Below are positions 8,508 to 27,086 of a DNA stretch of 34,580 nt, one piece after another. A program made the position numbers and the translations under genes. The notes under the pieces were generated by a model. It did not search any database and was not told where the DNA came from. It saw only the letters and a program-made list of their open reading frames with translations. Numbering within the stretch: position 1 is the stretch's first letter; every line of letters starts with the position of its first letter. The stretch comes from a bacterium (GTDB lineage: Bacteria; Pseudomonadota; Gammaproteobacteria; Nevskiales; OUC007), in NCBI GenBank assembly GCA_018222345.1, contig JAAFAL010000016.1, forward strand, positions 1 to 34,580. The letters run 5' to 3'.

Positions 8508-9551
8508 TTGGGCAAGCCCCACACCATCCGCATCGCCGGCAGTGATGTGCAATTCGCCGTTGAGCCGGGCGAAACCGTGCTCGACGCCGCGCTGCGCCTG
8601 GGCCTGCCCGCGCCCTACGGCTGCAAGACTGGCCACTGCGGCGCCTGCCGCGCGCAACTCGTTGAAGGCAGCGTGCATTACAAGGCGCCGCCGCAGGCTT
8701 TGTCGGAGCGAGAGCGCGACGCCGGCCTGACCTTGCTGTGCGAAGCCCAGCCCGACAGCGACGCCACTTTCGACGTGCAATTGCTGGCCGCCGACGGCCA
8801 CCTGCGTGCGCGCAACCTGCCGGCGCGCATCAACAGCCGCACGCAATTGGCACACGATGTCTGGCAATTGGAATTGCAGGTTCCAAAGGCCAAACCGTTC
8901 GATTTTTTGCCTGGTCAATATATCGACTTTCTGTTGCCAGACGGCGGCCGCCGCAGCTTTTCGCTGGCCGCGCCACCGAATGACGACAACGTGCTGCAAT
9001 TGCAACTGCGTAAAGTGCCCGGTGGCAGCTTCGTGCAGCACGTGGTGGACGAGTTGGACGATTGCGCCGTGCTACGCATCCAGGGGCCATTGGGCGGATT
9101 TTTCATGCGCGAAGCCCCACAGCGCCCGGCGGTGTTTATTGCCGGCGGCACCGGCTTTGCGCCCATCCGCGCCATCCTGCTCAGCGAACTCGCCGCCGGC
9201 CAAAGCAAGCCCTTGCACCTGTACTGGGGCGTGCGTGCGCGGCGCGACCTGTACGACGCCGAACTGGCTGAATCCTGGGCGCGCGAGCACGCCAACGTGC
9301 AGTTCACACCGGTGCTGTCAGACCCGGAACCGGACGACAACTGGAACGGCCGCACCGGCTTTGTCCATCAAGTGGCCGCTGAGGATTTCCCCGATTGCAG
9401 CGAACTGGATGTGTATGTGAGCGGCCCACCCGTGTTGGTTGATGCCGCCAAGCGCGACCTAGGCAAGCAAGGCCTACGCCCTGCGCGAACGTTTTACGAC
9501 GCGTTTGAATATGCCCACGTGACTTGGCCCGCCCTAGCGAGCGACGATTAG
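8508..9551 (+). CDS. 2Fe-2S ferredoxin / FAD-NAD(P) reductase (glucoseen-reductase-like)
   Basis: 347 residues. An N-terminal plant-type ferredoxin domain (1-90) carries the cluster cysteines C39, C44, C47 and C78 (YGCKTGHCGACR, LLCEA). It is joined to a ferredoxin-NADP reductase module with the FAD motif RSFSLAAPP (about 147-155) and the NAD(P) motif GGTGFAPIRAIL. Such proteins are often labelled CDP-6-deoxy-delta-3,4-glucoseen reductase, but no deoxysugar genes are nearby, so it is better read as an electron-transfer partner for an unknown oxygenase or reductase. The start is TTG 8508, supported by AGAGGA at 8495-8500. Its TAG stop overlaps the first base of the inverted-repeat element. Confidence 0.88.
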   Translation: MGKPHTIRIAGSDVQFAVEPGETVLDAALRLGLPAPYGCKTGHCGACRAQLVEGSVHYKAPPQALSERERDAGLTLLCEAQPDSDATFDVQLLAADGHLRARNLPARINSRTQLAHDVWQLELQVPKAKPFDFLPGQYIDFLLPDGGRRSFSLAAPPNDDNVLQLQLRKVPGGSFVQHVVDELDDCAVLRIQGPLGGFFMREAPQRPAVFIAGGTGFAPIRAILLSELAAGQSKPLHLYWGVRARRDLYDAELAESWAREHANVQFTPVLSDPEPDDNWNGRTGFVHQVAAEDFPDCSELDVYVSGPPVLVDAAKRDLGKQGLRPARTFYDAFEYAHVTWPALASDD

Positions 9552-9793
9552 TCCGGATGCTTCACGTGATGCGCGGCAGCTGGCGCGGGATCGTTGGTTC
9601 TGGACGCCGCTCTGGAGCGAGAAACGTAGCAATAACTACGTTTGGAGTGAAGAGCAAGTCCAGGACGAACGAGACAAGTCAGATGTTGTGCAAGCGATTC
9701 TTCGGTAAAACTGGTTTTTTACAAAACCCTCGATTGTTGACCGTAATCATGGGCTTACAAGTTCTAACAAGCGGTCACGTGAAATATCCGGAC
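9551..9793. repeat. TIR-bounded structured element, copy 1
   Basis: A 243-bp element filling the whole gap between two convergent genes. The terminal inverted repeats are 9551-9569 (GTCCGGATGCTTCACGTGA) and 9775-9793, 17 of 19 matching; they can be extended outward by TA on both sides. Bases 9551-9700 align without gaps to the reverse complement of 25472-25621 at about 79 % identity by hand count. The middle (about 9701-9760) is AT-rich and unlike copy 2. A hairpin with three stacked stems lies at 9597-9666. There is no transposase and no credible ORF. Read on the minus strand it starts 3 bases after the hemY stop, the same end and orientation that follows the ATPase stop in copy 2. Confidence 0.8.
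9597..9666. other. Conserved multi-stem hairpin in copy 1
   Basis: Nested stems: 9597-9605 with 9658-9666 (9 pairs including one G-T), GCTCT/AGAGC (9609-9613 with 9651-9655), and AAACGTAG/CTACGTTT (9622-9629 with 9636-9643) around a 6-base loop. A purine-rich internal loop (GGAGCGAG opposite GGAGTGA) separates the last two. The same structure can be drawn in copy 2 with compensatory changes. Confidence 0.7.
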
Positions 9794-9796
9794 TAG

Positions 9797-10999
9797 TCAG
9801 TCCGGAGTCGGGCTATCCGTGGCCAGTGCCAGTTCCAGACCGCGGCGGTAGAACTCCATCGCTTTGCCTGGCTCCTGGGTTTCTTCATTGAGACGCGCCA
9901 GCGCAAAGTAAGTGTCGGGCGAACTGCGCTTATCCAAACTGGATTCCAGATAGCTGCGGGCGCGGCCCCATAGCCGGTTGCGCAGGCACAGCCGGCCGGC
10001 GACGAACAACAACTCGGGCTTTTCTTCGTAGCGCTTGATCCACTGCTCGACCTTGGCCAATTGCGACACCGGATCGGCGGCGCGCAGATCGCCATACAGC
10101 AACACCAGATCCGCATCCCAACCGGTTTTCAGCGCCGCATCGACCATGGCGATGGCCTCGCTGTCGGCACCCGCCGCAGCTAATTGCCGCGCATAAGCAC
10201 GCACTAGTTCGGCGCGGCTGCGAAAAGCTTTTGGCACGGACGACCACGCAGCTTTCAGGCTATCCAGCGCATGATGTTTGCCGGCGGCTTCGAGCATCTG
10301 CAACTGACACTGCAGCATCAGCGCATCCCAACGCGGCGCCGGCAATACCGTGCTGCCCTCAACTTTTTGCAGGAGTTCGCGCAAGGCTTCCCACTCTTGT
10401 GTCGCCTCATACACGCTCACCAAACGGCGCTGCACGCCAGGATGATGCGGCTCCAATTCTTCCAGCCGCGTTAGCGTGGCCAGCGCCTCGGCATGGCGGC
10501 CGCCGGCCAATTGCAGGTCGGCCTGTTTGAGCAACACCGGCACTTCATGGCCAGGATTAGCGTCGATGGCCAGTTGCAGGTAGTGGTCGCGGCGGTCGGC
10601 GGCGGCAACGCCATCGGCGGCCTCGGCGGCGGCCAGATAATTCAAATAAGCGTGGTCGTGATGCGCGGCGCGGCGAACCAGATCGACCTCGGCTTCCTGC
10701 AAGCGTGCTTCATACAACTTGCCGATGCCGTCAAGAAACGACTCGCGCGCCTTGTCGCGCTTGCGACGCGCCAGGGCCTGCGACACCTTGCGCGGCGCCT
10801 GCACGGTGCCGCGGATGGTGCGAAAGGCCAAACCCGCGAGCAGGAACAGCAAGACGACACCCACCACCAACACAATGGCGTTGGTCTCGACCACGTAGCC
10901 ACCAACATTGACCAGCACGTAGCCGGCATCTTCACGGATGAACACCGCGCCAATGGCGGCGACTGCGAACGCAGCCAGAATGAGCAATAAGACGACCAT
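9797..10999 (-). CDS. hemY: HemY-type heme biosynthesis TPR protein
   Basis: 400 residues, inner-membrane anchored. Two N-terminal hydrophobic segments (about 2-20 and 40-62) precede a basic stretch and a long alpha-helical region of TPR-like repeats (for example HPGVQRRLVSVYEATQEW, then SPDTYFALARLNEETQEPGKAMEFYRRGLELAL). This is the proteobacterial HemY of the hemCDXY operon, not the Bacillus protoporphyrinogen oxidase of the same name; its exact role in the late heme pathway is unclear. The start is 3 bases after the hemDX stop, so they are cotranscribed. It is the last gene of the operon; element copy 1 begins 3 bases after its stop. Confidence 0.9.
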   Translation of the reverse strand: MVVLLLILAAFAVAAIGAVFIREDAGYVLVNVGGYVVETNAIVLVVGVVLLFLLAGLAFRTIRGTVQAPRKVSQALARRKRDKARESFLDGIGKLYEARLQEAEVDLVRRAAHHDHAYLNYLAAAEAADGVAAADRRDHYLQLAIDANPGHEVPVLLKQADLQLAGGRHAEALATLTRLEELEPHHPGVQRRLVSVYEATQEWEALRELLQKVEGSTVLPAPRWDALMLQCQLQMLEAAGKHHALDSLKAAWSSVPKAFRSRAELVRAYARQLAAAGADSEAIAMVDAALKTGWDADLVLLYGDLRAADPVSQLAKVEQWIKRYEEKPELLFVAGRLCLRNRLWGRARSYLESSLDKRSSPDTYFALARLNEETQEPGKAMEFYRRGLELALATDSPTPD

Positions 11000-22841: not shown

Positions 22842-22862
22842 GTCCCAGCGCATGCTTGGGAC
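22842..22862. promoter_or_regulatory. Imperfect palindrome before the EHGG gene
   Basis: GTCCCA (22842-22847) and TGGGAC (22857-22862) form a 6-bp inverted repeat around a GCATGC core, 31 bases before the ATG of the EHGG-repeat gene and 30 bases after the desaturase stop. There is no T-run. It could be an operator or leader hairpin; evidence is symmetry and position only. Confidence 0.3.
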
Positions 22863-22893
22863 ACCCACTCGAACCTCTACGGAGCGATTCACG

Positions 22894-23139
22894 ATGAGAA
22901 TTTTTATTGCAGCACTAATGGCAATCGGCTTGATGGCCTGTGCCCACGCTGGTGAGCACGGCGGCTCGGCTGCCAAGGAACACGGCGGCACATCCGCCCA
23001 AGAGCACGGCGGCAAAAAGGCCGATGACAAGAAAGAGCATGGCGGCGACGCAGCCAAAGAACAGGAGCACGGCGGTGAGGAAGCCGACGAGCATGGCGGC
23101 GACGCAGCCGATGAGCACGGCGGCGACCCGGCGCACTAG
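22894..23139 (+). CDS. Small secreted EHGG-repeat, histidine-rich protein
   Basis: 81 residues. The start ATG 22894 is preceded by ACGGAG. Residues 1-20 are a signal sequence (MRIFIAALMAIGLMACAHAG) with a lipobox-like LMAC and also a possible AHA signal-peptidase cut, so lipoprotein or free periplasmic protein are both possible. The mature part is almost entirely seven copies of EHGG spaced by 4-7 charged or small residues (AAK, TSAQ, KKADDKK, DAAKEQ). It has no cysteine beyond the lipobox and looks unfolded. Histidine plus acid repeats suggest metal binding. A strong terminator follows, so it is a separate transcript from the transporter operon. Family unknown to me. Confidence 0.75.
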   Translation: MRIFIAALMAIGLMACAHAGEHGGSAAKEHGGTSAQEHGGKKADDKKEHGGDAAKEQEHGGEEADEHGGDAADEHGGDPAH

Positions 23140-23153
23140 TCACGCATTCGCCG

Positions 23154-24651: not shown

Positions 24652-25374
24652 ATGCTGCACCTGACCGCCGAGTCGCTGACTGCGCATGGTCAGGTGCTGT
24701 TCACCGGGCTGGACCTCAAGGTTGAGGCCGGTGAGCGAGTGGTGGTGTTGGGTGCCAGCGGCGCCGGCAAGACGACGCTGCTCAATGCCTTGTATCGCCA
24801 CGCTGGGAAAAACGCTGCGCTCATTCCGCAGCCGCACGGCCTAGTCGGCCCGCTGTCGGCCGCGCACAACGTAGCCCTTGGCCGCATTGATCAGGTCAGC
24901 CTGCTGGGTAATTTGCGCAGCTTGCTATGGATGCCGCAGGCCGAGCGCTCGGCCATTCAGGACCAGTTGCTGGCCGTCGATTTGCCTTCGCATTTTGATC
25001 AGCCCGTCGAAACCTTGTCCGGCGGCGAACAATCACGCACCGCCATTGCCCGGGCGCTGTATCGCGGGTCACCGTTGCTGATTGCCGACGAACCCTGCGC
25101 GGCGTTGGATCCCGAGCGCGCCCGCAGCGTGCTAGCGGTGCTGCGCGCGCGCTTCGACACCATCGTTTGCAGCATGCACGACGTGCGCGCCGGGCTGGCG
25201 CTGGCCACCCGCATCATCGGTGTGGCCGATCGCAAGATGGTCTTCGACCAGCCAGTTGGCGATGTCACCGAGGCGCAACTGGATGCGCTGTACAACAACG
25301 GTGACAAATCGCAGTCCAGCGCCGAGCAATCCGAAACCAATCCGCTGGATACCATGCCCCGCGGCTGCATGTAA
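24652..25374 (+). CDS. ABC transporter ATP-binding protein (PhnC-like)
   Basis: 240 residues. Walker A GASGAGKT (34-41), signature LSGGEQ (122-127), Walker B LLIADE (142-147) with D-loop ALD, and the H-loop histidine in SMHD are all present, so it should be active. It powers the import system with the lipoprotein before it and the double permease after it. The last about 25 residues (GDKSQSSAEQSETNPLDTMPRGCM) extend beyond the usual end. The stop TAA is directly followed by the terminal repeat of element copy 2, which separates it from the permease by 239 bases. Confidence 0.9.
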   Translation: MLHLTAESLTAHGQVLFTGLDLKVEAGERVVVLGASGAGKTTLLNALYRHAGKNAALIPQPHGLVGPLSAAHNVALGRIDQVSLLGNLRSLLWMPQAERSAIQDQLLAVDLPSHFDQPVETLSGGEQSRTAIARALYRGSPLLIADEPCAALDPERARSVLAVLRARFDTIVCSMHDVRAGLALATRIIGVADRKMVFDQPVGDVTEAQLDALYNNGDKSQSSAEQSETNPLDTMPRGCM

Positions 25375-25621
25375 GCCCGCATGTTTCACGTGACCGCTCT
25401 CCGGAACTCCTAGGCCGATGAATCTCTGTGAAGGTGCTGGGAGGACTCTGAAGTGCTCACTTTGGATTGTCGCGTCGCTCGTACGGCATCTGACTGGTCT
25501 CGCCCGCCCTGAGCTTGCTCTTCATTCCAAATGTAGCTACGGCTACATTTCTCACTCCAGAGCGGCGCCCAGAACGGTCGATCCGGCGCCAGCTACCGCA
25601 CGCCACGCGAAACATGCGGGC
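25375..25621. repeat. TIR-bounded structured element, copy 2, inside the ABC operon
   Basis: A 247-bp element in the opposite orientation to copy 1. The terminal inverted repeats 25375-25393 (GCCCGCATGTTTCACGTGA) and 25603-25621 match at 17 of 19. Bases 25472-25621 are the conserved half shared with copy 1, and 15 bases near the left end (TTTCACGTGACCGCT) are identical to the matching end of copy 1. The middle (about 25405-25471) is unlike copy 1. A stem AAATGTAGC/GCTACATTT at 25529-25550 closes a TACG loop, a UNCG-type tetraloop when transcribed with the operon. The left end follows the ATPase stop with no gap; the right end contains the ATG of the permease. Confidence 0.8.
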
Positions 25622-27086
25622 TAGCCGCTCCCGGTTTAGTCTGCTGGCCCTGCTGGCCGCCGGGCTACTGCTGCCGTTTGCCGACCTGGCCATCGTCAGC
25701 TCAGACCCCGGCAGCGAGTTCGCCCGCATTGCCGCCGGCTTCGCCACACCCGCGCTGCCCGAATGGCCGGTGCTGCTGAGCGCACTGGGCTATACCTTTG
25801 CGTTTGGCCTGCTAGGCACCTTGGTGGCCGCCCCGTTTGGCCTGCTGATGGCACTGGTGTGGCGCTCGCGCGCTGTGCGCACGGTGGCCGCCAGCATCCG
25901 TGCCATCCACGAACTGTTCTGGGCGCTGATCTTTCTGCACGTGTTCGGGCTGACGCCGCTTACGGGCCTGCTGGCCATTGCCATTCCCTATTCAGGCATC
26001 TTCGGCAAGGTGTTCGCAGAGATTCTGGACGAGCAGCCCGACGATGCCGTGCGCCACTTGCCGCCCGGCACATCGGCCGTCAGCGCACTGCTGTTCGTGC
26101 GCTTGCCGCAGGCGTGGCCGCAACTGCGCAGCTATTTTTTCGCCCGTACTGAATGCGGCATGCGCTCCAGCGCCGTGCTGGGTTTTGTCGGCTTGCCGAC
26201 GCTGGGCTACCACCTGGAATCGGCGCTGTCCTATGGTGCCTATTCCGACGCGGTCGTATTCCTGATGGCGCTGATTTTGTTGATTGGCGCCTTCCGGCTG
26301 GTGGTGCCACCGCGCAGTTGGCTGGTTTGGCTTTTGGTATTGCCGTGGATGATCCCCGGCGAATGGGGTGTGCAAACCACAACGCTGGTGCGGCTGATCA
26401 CGGAAGACTTATGGCCCAGCGCCCTACTGACCGGCGACTGGGCAGACTTGTGGGTGTGGTTCGAGGCGCTCATGGTCGAAGCCTTGCTGCCCGGCCTGTG
26501 GCAGACCATCTTGCTCAGCGTACTCGCCCTGCTGGCCACGGCCGTACTCACGCTGCTGATCTGGCCCATCGCCATCCGCATGGTGGCCGGGCGCACCGGG
26601 CAAGCCGGTGGGCATGCGGCATTCCTGGTGTTCCGCGCCACGCCGGAGTATCTGCTGGCCTACCTGTTCCTGCTGCTGTGGGGGCCGTCCATGCTGCCGG
26701 CCATCGTCGCGCTGATGTTGCACAACGCCGGCATCATCGCCTTCTTGCTGGCACGCACCGCCGACCGCCTGCCGCGCCGCCTGGATGCCCCGCGTGGCCT
26801 GCGCGACTACCTGTGGAACAGCCTGCCCCGGCTCTACGGCCCGTTCCTCGCCTACTTGTTCTACCGCTGGGAAATCATCCTGCGCGAATCGTCGGTAGTC
26901 GGCATCCTGGGCATTGCCACGCTGGGCTTCTATGTTGATTCCGCGCTGGCCGAATTGCGGCTGGACAAGCTGTTACCGCTACTGATCGGCACGGTGTTGC
27001 TCAATGTCGCGGTCGATATCGCTTCACGCAGGCTGCGGCATTACCTGCAACTGGATGGCAAGCGAGGCACCGTCTCATTCAGCTAG
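25614..27086 (+). CDS. Double-domain ABC permease (PhnE-like tandem)
   Basis: 490 residues from ATG 25614; the frame is open back into the element. Two permease units are fused: about 50-240 (FGLLGTLVAAPFGLLMALVWRS, coupling region EILDEQPDDAVRHLPPGTSAVSALLFVRLPQAWPQ) and about 285-480 (TILLSVLALLATAVLTLLIWP, then LRDYLWNSLPRLYGPFLAYLFYRWEIILRESSVVGILG). A normal importer uses two PhnE copies, so this single protein can serve as the whole membrane channel. No Shine-Dalgarno is seen before the ATG, which lies within the terminal repeat of element copy 2; the true start or its translation may depend on the element. Confidence 0.87.
   Translation: MRASRSRFSLLALLAAGLLLPFADLAIVSSDPGSEFARIAAGFATPALPEWPVLLSALGYTFAFGLLGTLVAAPFGLLMALVWRSRAVRTVAASIRAIHELFWALIFLHVFGLTPLTGLLAIAIPYSGIFGKVFAEILDEQPDDAVRHLPPGTSAVSALLFVRLPQAWPQLRSYFFARTECGMRSSAVLGFVGLPTLGYHLESALSYGAYSDAVVFLMALILLIGAFRLVVPPRSWLVWLLVLPWMIPGEWGVQTTTLVRLITEDLWPSALLTGDWADLWVWFEALMVEALLPGLWQTILLSVLALLATAVLTLLIWPIAIRMVAGRTGQAGGHAAFLVFRATPEYLLAYLFLLLWGPSMLPAIVALMLHNAGIIAFLLARTADRLPRRLDAPRGLRDYLWNSLPRLYGPFLAYLFYRWEIILRESSVVGILGIATLGFYVDSALAELRLDKLLPLLIGTVLLNVAVDIASRRLRHYLQLDGKRGTVSFS

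Follow-up and report, generated by a model that had tools for sequence, protein, structure and literature searches.

Bacterial MITEs are usually seen as decaying scraps of insertion sequences with incidental hairpins. The stability of their transcripts is a known trait (PMC2229807), and some of them give rise to small RNAs (PMC5896051, PMC10969869). The target of piggyBac, to which the IS1380 family of insertion sequences is related, is TTAA (PMC10140906), and that of IS630 is the TA in CTAG, according to Tenzen and Ohtsubo as cited in PMC2170065.

In the present study, we analysed a 34,580-nt stretch of DNA (hereafter, the window) that contains two copies of a short element, together with the genome from which it derives (the own genome, G000) and other genomes. 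Copy 1 occupies 9549-9795 (from TA to TA, 247 bp) on the + strand, which is the 'sense' orientation of the fold described below, and copy 2 occupies 25373-25623 (251 bp) on the - strand; when the flanking YTAR is counted, the outer bounds are 9548-9796 and about 25372-25624, respectively. The original prediction placed the copies correctly, although its bounds (9551-9793 and 25375-25621) were slightly too narrow because they left out the flanking YTAR, which is part of the site. The alignment of the two copies (149 nt at 80% identity in one half, 48 nt at 75% in the other, 69% overall) agreed with the predicted homology in opposite orientation. Both copies were closed by the expected 19-bp inverted repeats, 17 of 19 bases matching, and no transposase was found inside the element, as had been proposed. 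The repeats of each copy had indeed changed together, positions 2 and 6 reading T,G in copy 1 and C,C in copy 2, alike at either end; these co-changing repeats are part of a covariation that extends over the whole element.

Copy 1 begins with the left target-site copy TTAG (YTAR; 9548-9551), followed by the left terminal inverted repeat GTCCGGATGCTTCACGTGA (9551-9569, +), which is an IS1380-type end and the 5' arm of an outer stem, P1. The inner 121-nt hairpin (9571-9691, +), to which covariance model R1 corresponds, is tipped by a GTAGC-AATA-acTAC stem, and its GGA/GA internal loops are invariant; the 3' domain (9692-9774, +) is richer in A+T, evolves faster and contains a weakly conserved ACAAACTGG motif. 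The right terminal inverted repeat (9775-9793, -), the 3' arm of P1, and the right target-site copy CTAG (9793-9796) complete the copy. In copy 2, the terminal inverted repeats lie at 25375-25393 (+; right end in element orientation) and 25603-25621 (-; left end). The sequence AATCATGGGCTTA was well conserved in the A+T-rich arm (right part) of the own-genome copies and is one base off the IHF consensus WATCAANNNNTTR; Correia elements carry an IHF site too. Three own-genome copies (L010, L011 and L015) have an extra 15-nt segment, CCCAGAAA[G/C]ATCGTTCTTGGG, which can form a small hairpin beside the tip stem. Elsewhere in the window, the Rfam Whalefall-1 RNA was detected at 1763-1815 (+; 38.4 bits, gathering threshold 37), just downstream of the ORF at 4-1740, and a 95-aa ORF at 22852-23139 (+) with repeated EHGG motifs, which had no NCBIfam match, was accompanied by imperfect 24-30-bp repeats at 22954-23148.

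The ends of the element, YTAR|CCCGNATNTTTCAC, match those of IS1380-family insertion sequences, and across families the ends read YTAR|CC(C/T)GNATNTTKCAC... with a spacing of 243-300 bp. In one element-bearing genome (G347), ATGAAACATTCGGGCTAG follows the gene of an IS1380 transposase (NF033539, E = 3e-108); in another (G332), TAACCCGAATATTTCACGC precedes the IS1380 gene; a complete 1712-bp IS1380 on a plasmid of Endozoicomonas sp. Mp262 (CP092490.1) has TAACCCGGATATTTCATAAA ends with CTAA/CTAA flanks; and alphaproteobacterial IS1380s read CTAG|CCCGTCTTATTCACC with CTAG/CTAG flanks. A full-length, transposase-bearing relative with matching ends, which the original prediction proposed to look for, was found in Endozoicomonas, and a matching end beside the transposase gene in G347 and in G332. 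In the own genome, neither a 1-2-kb parent with such ends nor an IS1380 transposase (PF13701) was detected, the latter absence being weak evidence since the draft assembly breaks at repeats. The transposase was present in only three of 22 other element-bearing genomes. Among 61 elements with TA at both ends, the outer target bases agreed between the two sides more often than expected (N1=C', 48 versus 37.7 expected, p < 2e-4; G'=N2, 42 versus 34.9 expected, p = 0.002), which favours a 4-bp YTAR duplication over a duplication of TA alone and fits IS1380/piggyBac rather than IS630. On this duplication and on the match of the ends to IS1380, we rejected an IS630/Tc1-mariner MITE with a 2-bp TA duplication, and the IS630 transposase (PF13358) is absent from the own genome. 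Judged by its ends and target, the element is a putative non-autonomous (MITE-like) element of the IS1380 type; its mobilisation in trans by an IS1380 transposase, which we infer, may lie in the past for the own genome. The terminal repeat also contains TGTTTCACGTGA, which shares 12 of 16 bases with the canonical parS. A scan of genome contigs was swamped by parS-like sites. In the own genome, such sites read TGTTCCACGTGGAACA and occur twice, at a distance of about 600 bp (G000:C131:32688 and 33297); the resemblance was judged coincidental.

The own genome, a 3.0-Mb draft assembly of 220 contigs, yielded 43 BLAST matches to copy 1, with E values down to 8e-135, so that the two window copies are not the only ones and their similarity is far beyond chance. 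We delimited 27 full-length copies of 247-264 bp (mean pairwise identity 79%), and several further copies are cut by contig ends, indicating that the true copy number exceeds the count. A scan for the terminal-repeat pattern gave 71 matches, versus one for the reversed control pattern. The own genome thus contains about 40 dispersed copies of this element family in both orientations. There was no match at the DNA level in the 60 nearest relatives searched, and the terminal repeat was not found in 84 other genomes of the order except for one chance-like single match. The covariance-model search suggested in the original prediction reached further: of 368 further genomes of the class, 30 contained the element according to R1 (inner hairpin; E down to 1e-21), often in many copies, and R2, which was built from the copies found with R1, detected it in nine of a further 398 genomes drawn from across the phylum. 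Judging by hemY and a parS of the Pseudomonas type, the class is probably Gammaproteobacteria as defined in GTDB. The latter nine comprise one genome of the same class (G448), seven from a family of another class (f211), in several copies of which the terminal repeats are again CTAGCCCGGATTTTTCATGAG-like, and one from elsewhere in the phylum (G478) with a weak match (E = 2e-4). In a specificity control of 0.69 Mb of unrelated contigs, the best score was 20 bits (E = 0.14), versus 40-100 bits for most real matches.

Related miniature elements were noted in two other genomes. In G347, there were 142 repeat matches, the paired ones being spaced by about 120 to 355 bp, and this genome holds several miniature-element classes with common ends. 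In G324 (two contigs; L274-L277), a second, 182-bp class was represented by five near-identical end pairs with TAGCCCGCATTTCTCACC ends as in the main element; its core is related and scored 20-26 bits with R1, and the class repeats the design of the main element in a shorter form. In the search for a parent element, lone ends in G324 were assessed from their positions and open frames alone. A search of plasmids, phages and viral contigs for the element gave nothing useful. Two phage-like IMG/VR contigs (L200 and L201) have their first ~106 nt in common, ending in one terminal repeat, and these repeat ends adjoin terminase and capsid-like genes; they are possibly insertions or assembly joins.

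When one full copy was folded as RNA, the free energy was -127.5 kcal/mol (z = -10.6). The terminal repeats form the 21-pair outer stem P1, which encloses the rest of the element, and within P1 lie the 121-nt hairpin with a GTAGC-NNNN-GCTAC tip and then a less conserved third arm. In the alignment of 27 copies, which was made with MAFFT from sequence only and not fitted to the fold, 96.9% of cells pair, versus 92.6% in shuffled controls and less than 39% when the partner was slid, and changes on both sides were seen in 30 of 63 pairs (8.7 ± 2.0 shuffled). None of the 27 copies shows a change in the unpaired GGA/GA bases of the internal loops. Among 81 copies from other genomes, whose alignment was fitted to the model and is biased towards it, 91.7% of cells pair (64.5% shuffled), with 886 double-change cells (260 shuffled). 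The fold has clearly been preserved by evolution across many families and two classes. The original prediction had considered a structured RNA cassette, and the strongly covarying, strand-specific fold is in line with that suggestion; Rfam 15 gave no match to the window copy or to the copies from other genomes, and the original prediction had likewise recognised no named family.

The strand on which the fold is kept can be judged from the non-Watson-Crick pairs. In the sense orientation, G·U pairs account for 207 cells in the 27 copies (12% of pairs) and A·C mismatches for 18. Since C>T and G>A changes are equally frequent in the paired columns (59 each), mutational strand bias does not explain the G·U excess. 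The minority states were similarly skewed in the terminal repeats (P1; 29:6, p = 1e-4) and in the inner hairpin (67:12, p = 2e-10), as were the new changes on the terminal branches of the copy tree (44:15, p = 2e-4), also after removal of the six most divergent copies (33:12). On these branches, the G·U:A·C ratios, which rest on small numbers, were 11:4 for copies with sense neighbours and 25:7 for those with antisense-only neighbours, pointing to one-strand selection that is independent of the transcription of the neighbours. In our interpretation, selection acts on the RNA in the spreading lineages, and the main rival is a single-stranded DNA fold.

According to that rival, selection works on one DNA strand in its single-stranded form, which folds while the element is replicated or mobilised, in the manner of integron attC or REP/IS200-type hairpins. 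The appearance of selection tied to the mobile lineage and not to locus transcription would suit it, the DNA folding is also strong (z = -8.9), and G·T destabilises less than A·C in DNA too. Some of the G·U bias could stem from a strand-specific hairpin in DNA. However, the ends and the 4-bp duplication are of the DDE transposase type, which acts on double-stranded DNA, the observed share of G·U is typical of RNA, and no HUH or integrase partner was indicated; we consider this explanation unlikely.

Still less probable is an ordinary IS1380-derived MITE, in which the hairpin would be a by-product of the inverted repeats, the paired changes would come from template switching or gene conversion, and the fold would have no function. 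The ends, the target and the dispersal are all MITE-like, the transcripts of MITEs are known to fold stably (PMC2229807), and some mismatching mutations do build up on the terminal branches. Homogenisation of the arms is strand-blind, however, and would not yield the G·U excess over A·C seen over the whole element, in P1 and in the inner hairpin; the invariance of the unpaired purine loops and the maintenance of the fold across classes also argue against it, and this explanation is already disfavoured.

The neighbouring genes bear on the remaining alternative. The genes on either side of copy 1 are intact and convergent, namely that of a BenC/MmoC-like ferredoxin-NAD(P)H reductase (8508-9551, +), which ends in the TAG of copy 1, and hemY, encoding HemY (9797-10999, -), whose TGA is directly beyond the right target copy. 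Copy 2 is flanked by phnC (24652-25374) and, on the other side, phnE (25614-27086); the likely ATG of phnE (25614-25616) is within the terminal repeat, and copy 2 likely supplies the start codon and the first residues (MRAS...) of the phnE permease. With genes called by a simple script based on codon usage in place of a standard annotator, a neighbour gene stops in the TAR of the target copy in 16 of the 27 full copies, and in 13 of these 16 the stop codon stays at the same place when the flanks are joined in silico. Stop codons make up 24% of the background YTAR sites of the own genome that either are noncoding or coincide with a stop (33% when only CTAG is counted), and the enrichment of insertions over such tolerated sites is thus ~2-fold (p = 8e-5; 5e-3 against CTAG only). 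We dropped a special stop-codon-targeting mechanism because the choice of YTAR as a target, together with the purging of gene-breaking insertions, suffices for this enrichment. The siting of copies at 3' ends of genes agrees with what was originally suggested, and it is largely explained by target choice and purifying selection. Because the YTAR site used, mostly CTAG, in many cases coincides with a stop codon, the neighbouring proteins stay intact. Gene ends face the left and right ends of the own-genome copies about equally, and neither a promoter nor a U-tract terminator was found in the element. An RNA that the host has adopted as a 3' UTR to regulate or terminate the adjacent transcripts, as with the ERIC or Correia/NEMIS RNA that is processed within mRNAs, would agree with the copies at stop codons and with similar roles reported for other MITEs (PMC2229807, PMC10969869), but it is very unlikely in view of the even use of both ends, the fold kept equally in antisense-only and sense contexts, the lack of a terminator and the share of the stop-codon association that target preference accounts for.

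We thus regard as the probable explanation a MITE-like non-autonomous element that combines ends of the IS1380 type with a structured-RNA sequence of its own, the fold of which probably helps the element to spread or to be tolerated. The CCCG ends would be cut by an IS1380-type transposase acting in trans and encoded by an element that the assembly no longer contains; insertion into YTAR would duplicate 4 bp; and copies landing on stop codons would survive by sparing the neighbouring proteins. A left-to-right read-through transcript would then fold. The rarity of IS1380 transposases among the bearing genomes, the lack of a promoter and the antisense position of roughly half of the own-genome copies, in which transcription of the folded strand would be hypothetical, count against this reading. 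The fold would be selected in active lineages, and the predicted RNA most likely serves the spread or tolerance of the element, not a need of each host locus, perhaps as a stable, insulated transcript or as a regulator bound by protein at the invariant purine loops. A stronger version, in which the element's own folded RNA is needed for spread, either as an RNA-dependent partner of IS1380-type transposition or in a transposon dispersing a trans-acting structured RNA, and is old or mobile enough for at least two proteobacterial classes, is conceivable but doubtful.

Set against the usual view of bacterial MITEs, one fold with compensatory changes was kept on one strand in about 40 copies and dozens of genomes, independently of the neighbours, and this suggests that the RNA has a role belonging to the element itself. 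The question whether MITE RNAs act becomes testable, a sizeable RNA family missing from Rfam is added, and some 3'-end repeats become explicable as YTAR-targeted IS1380-type insertions. In the open-access literature, we found no paper with the repeat sequences, of which an earlier description elsewhere is possible, and no report of a covarying, strand-selected fold common to several families or of such IS1380-type MITEs.

The element resembles the IS1380 family in its ends, which start with CCCGNAT.TTTCA(C/T), and in its insertion into YTAR (CTAG/CTAA/TTAA) with a 4-bp duplication. It differs in having no transposase, in its length (247-264 bp versus about 1.7 kb) and in its conserved fold, which was not seen in the insertion sequence itself. 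MITEPsy1 of Pseudomonas syringae, a 100-bp MITE, also has a CTAG or YTAA target and a 4-bp duplication, but its ends are of the IS5 type, GGAAGGTCTGAAAAAGCC, not CCCG (PMC3189936). QMITE1 and QMITE2 of Coxiella burnetii are likewise gammaproteobacterial MITEs that give small RNAs, QMITE2 being found in 3' UTRs, whereas their target duplications are 2-3 or 7-11 bp with variable sequence, and cross-family covariation is not among the features reported in the parts consulted (PMC5896051). ERIC, Correia/NEMIS and RUP are, like the present element, short, dispersed and intergenic, with a TA-containing target and stable hairpin transcripts (PMC2229807). Their descriptions set them apart: the present element is larger, it has another parental insertion sequence (RUP being linked to IS630-Spn1), and its fold is conserved across many families and two classes.
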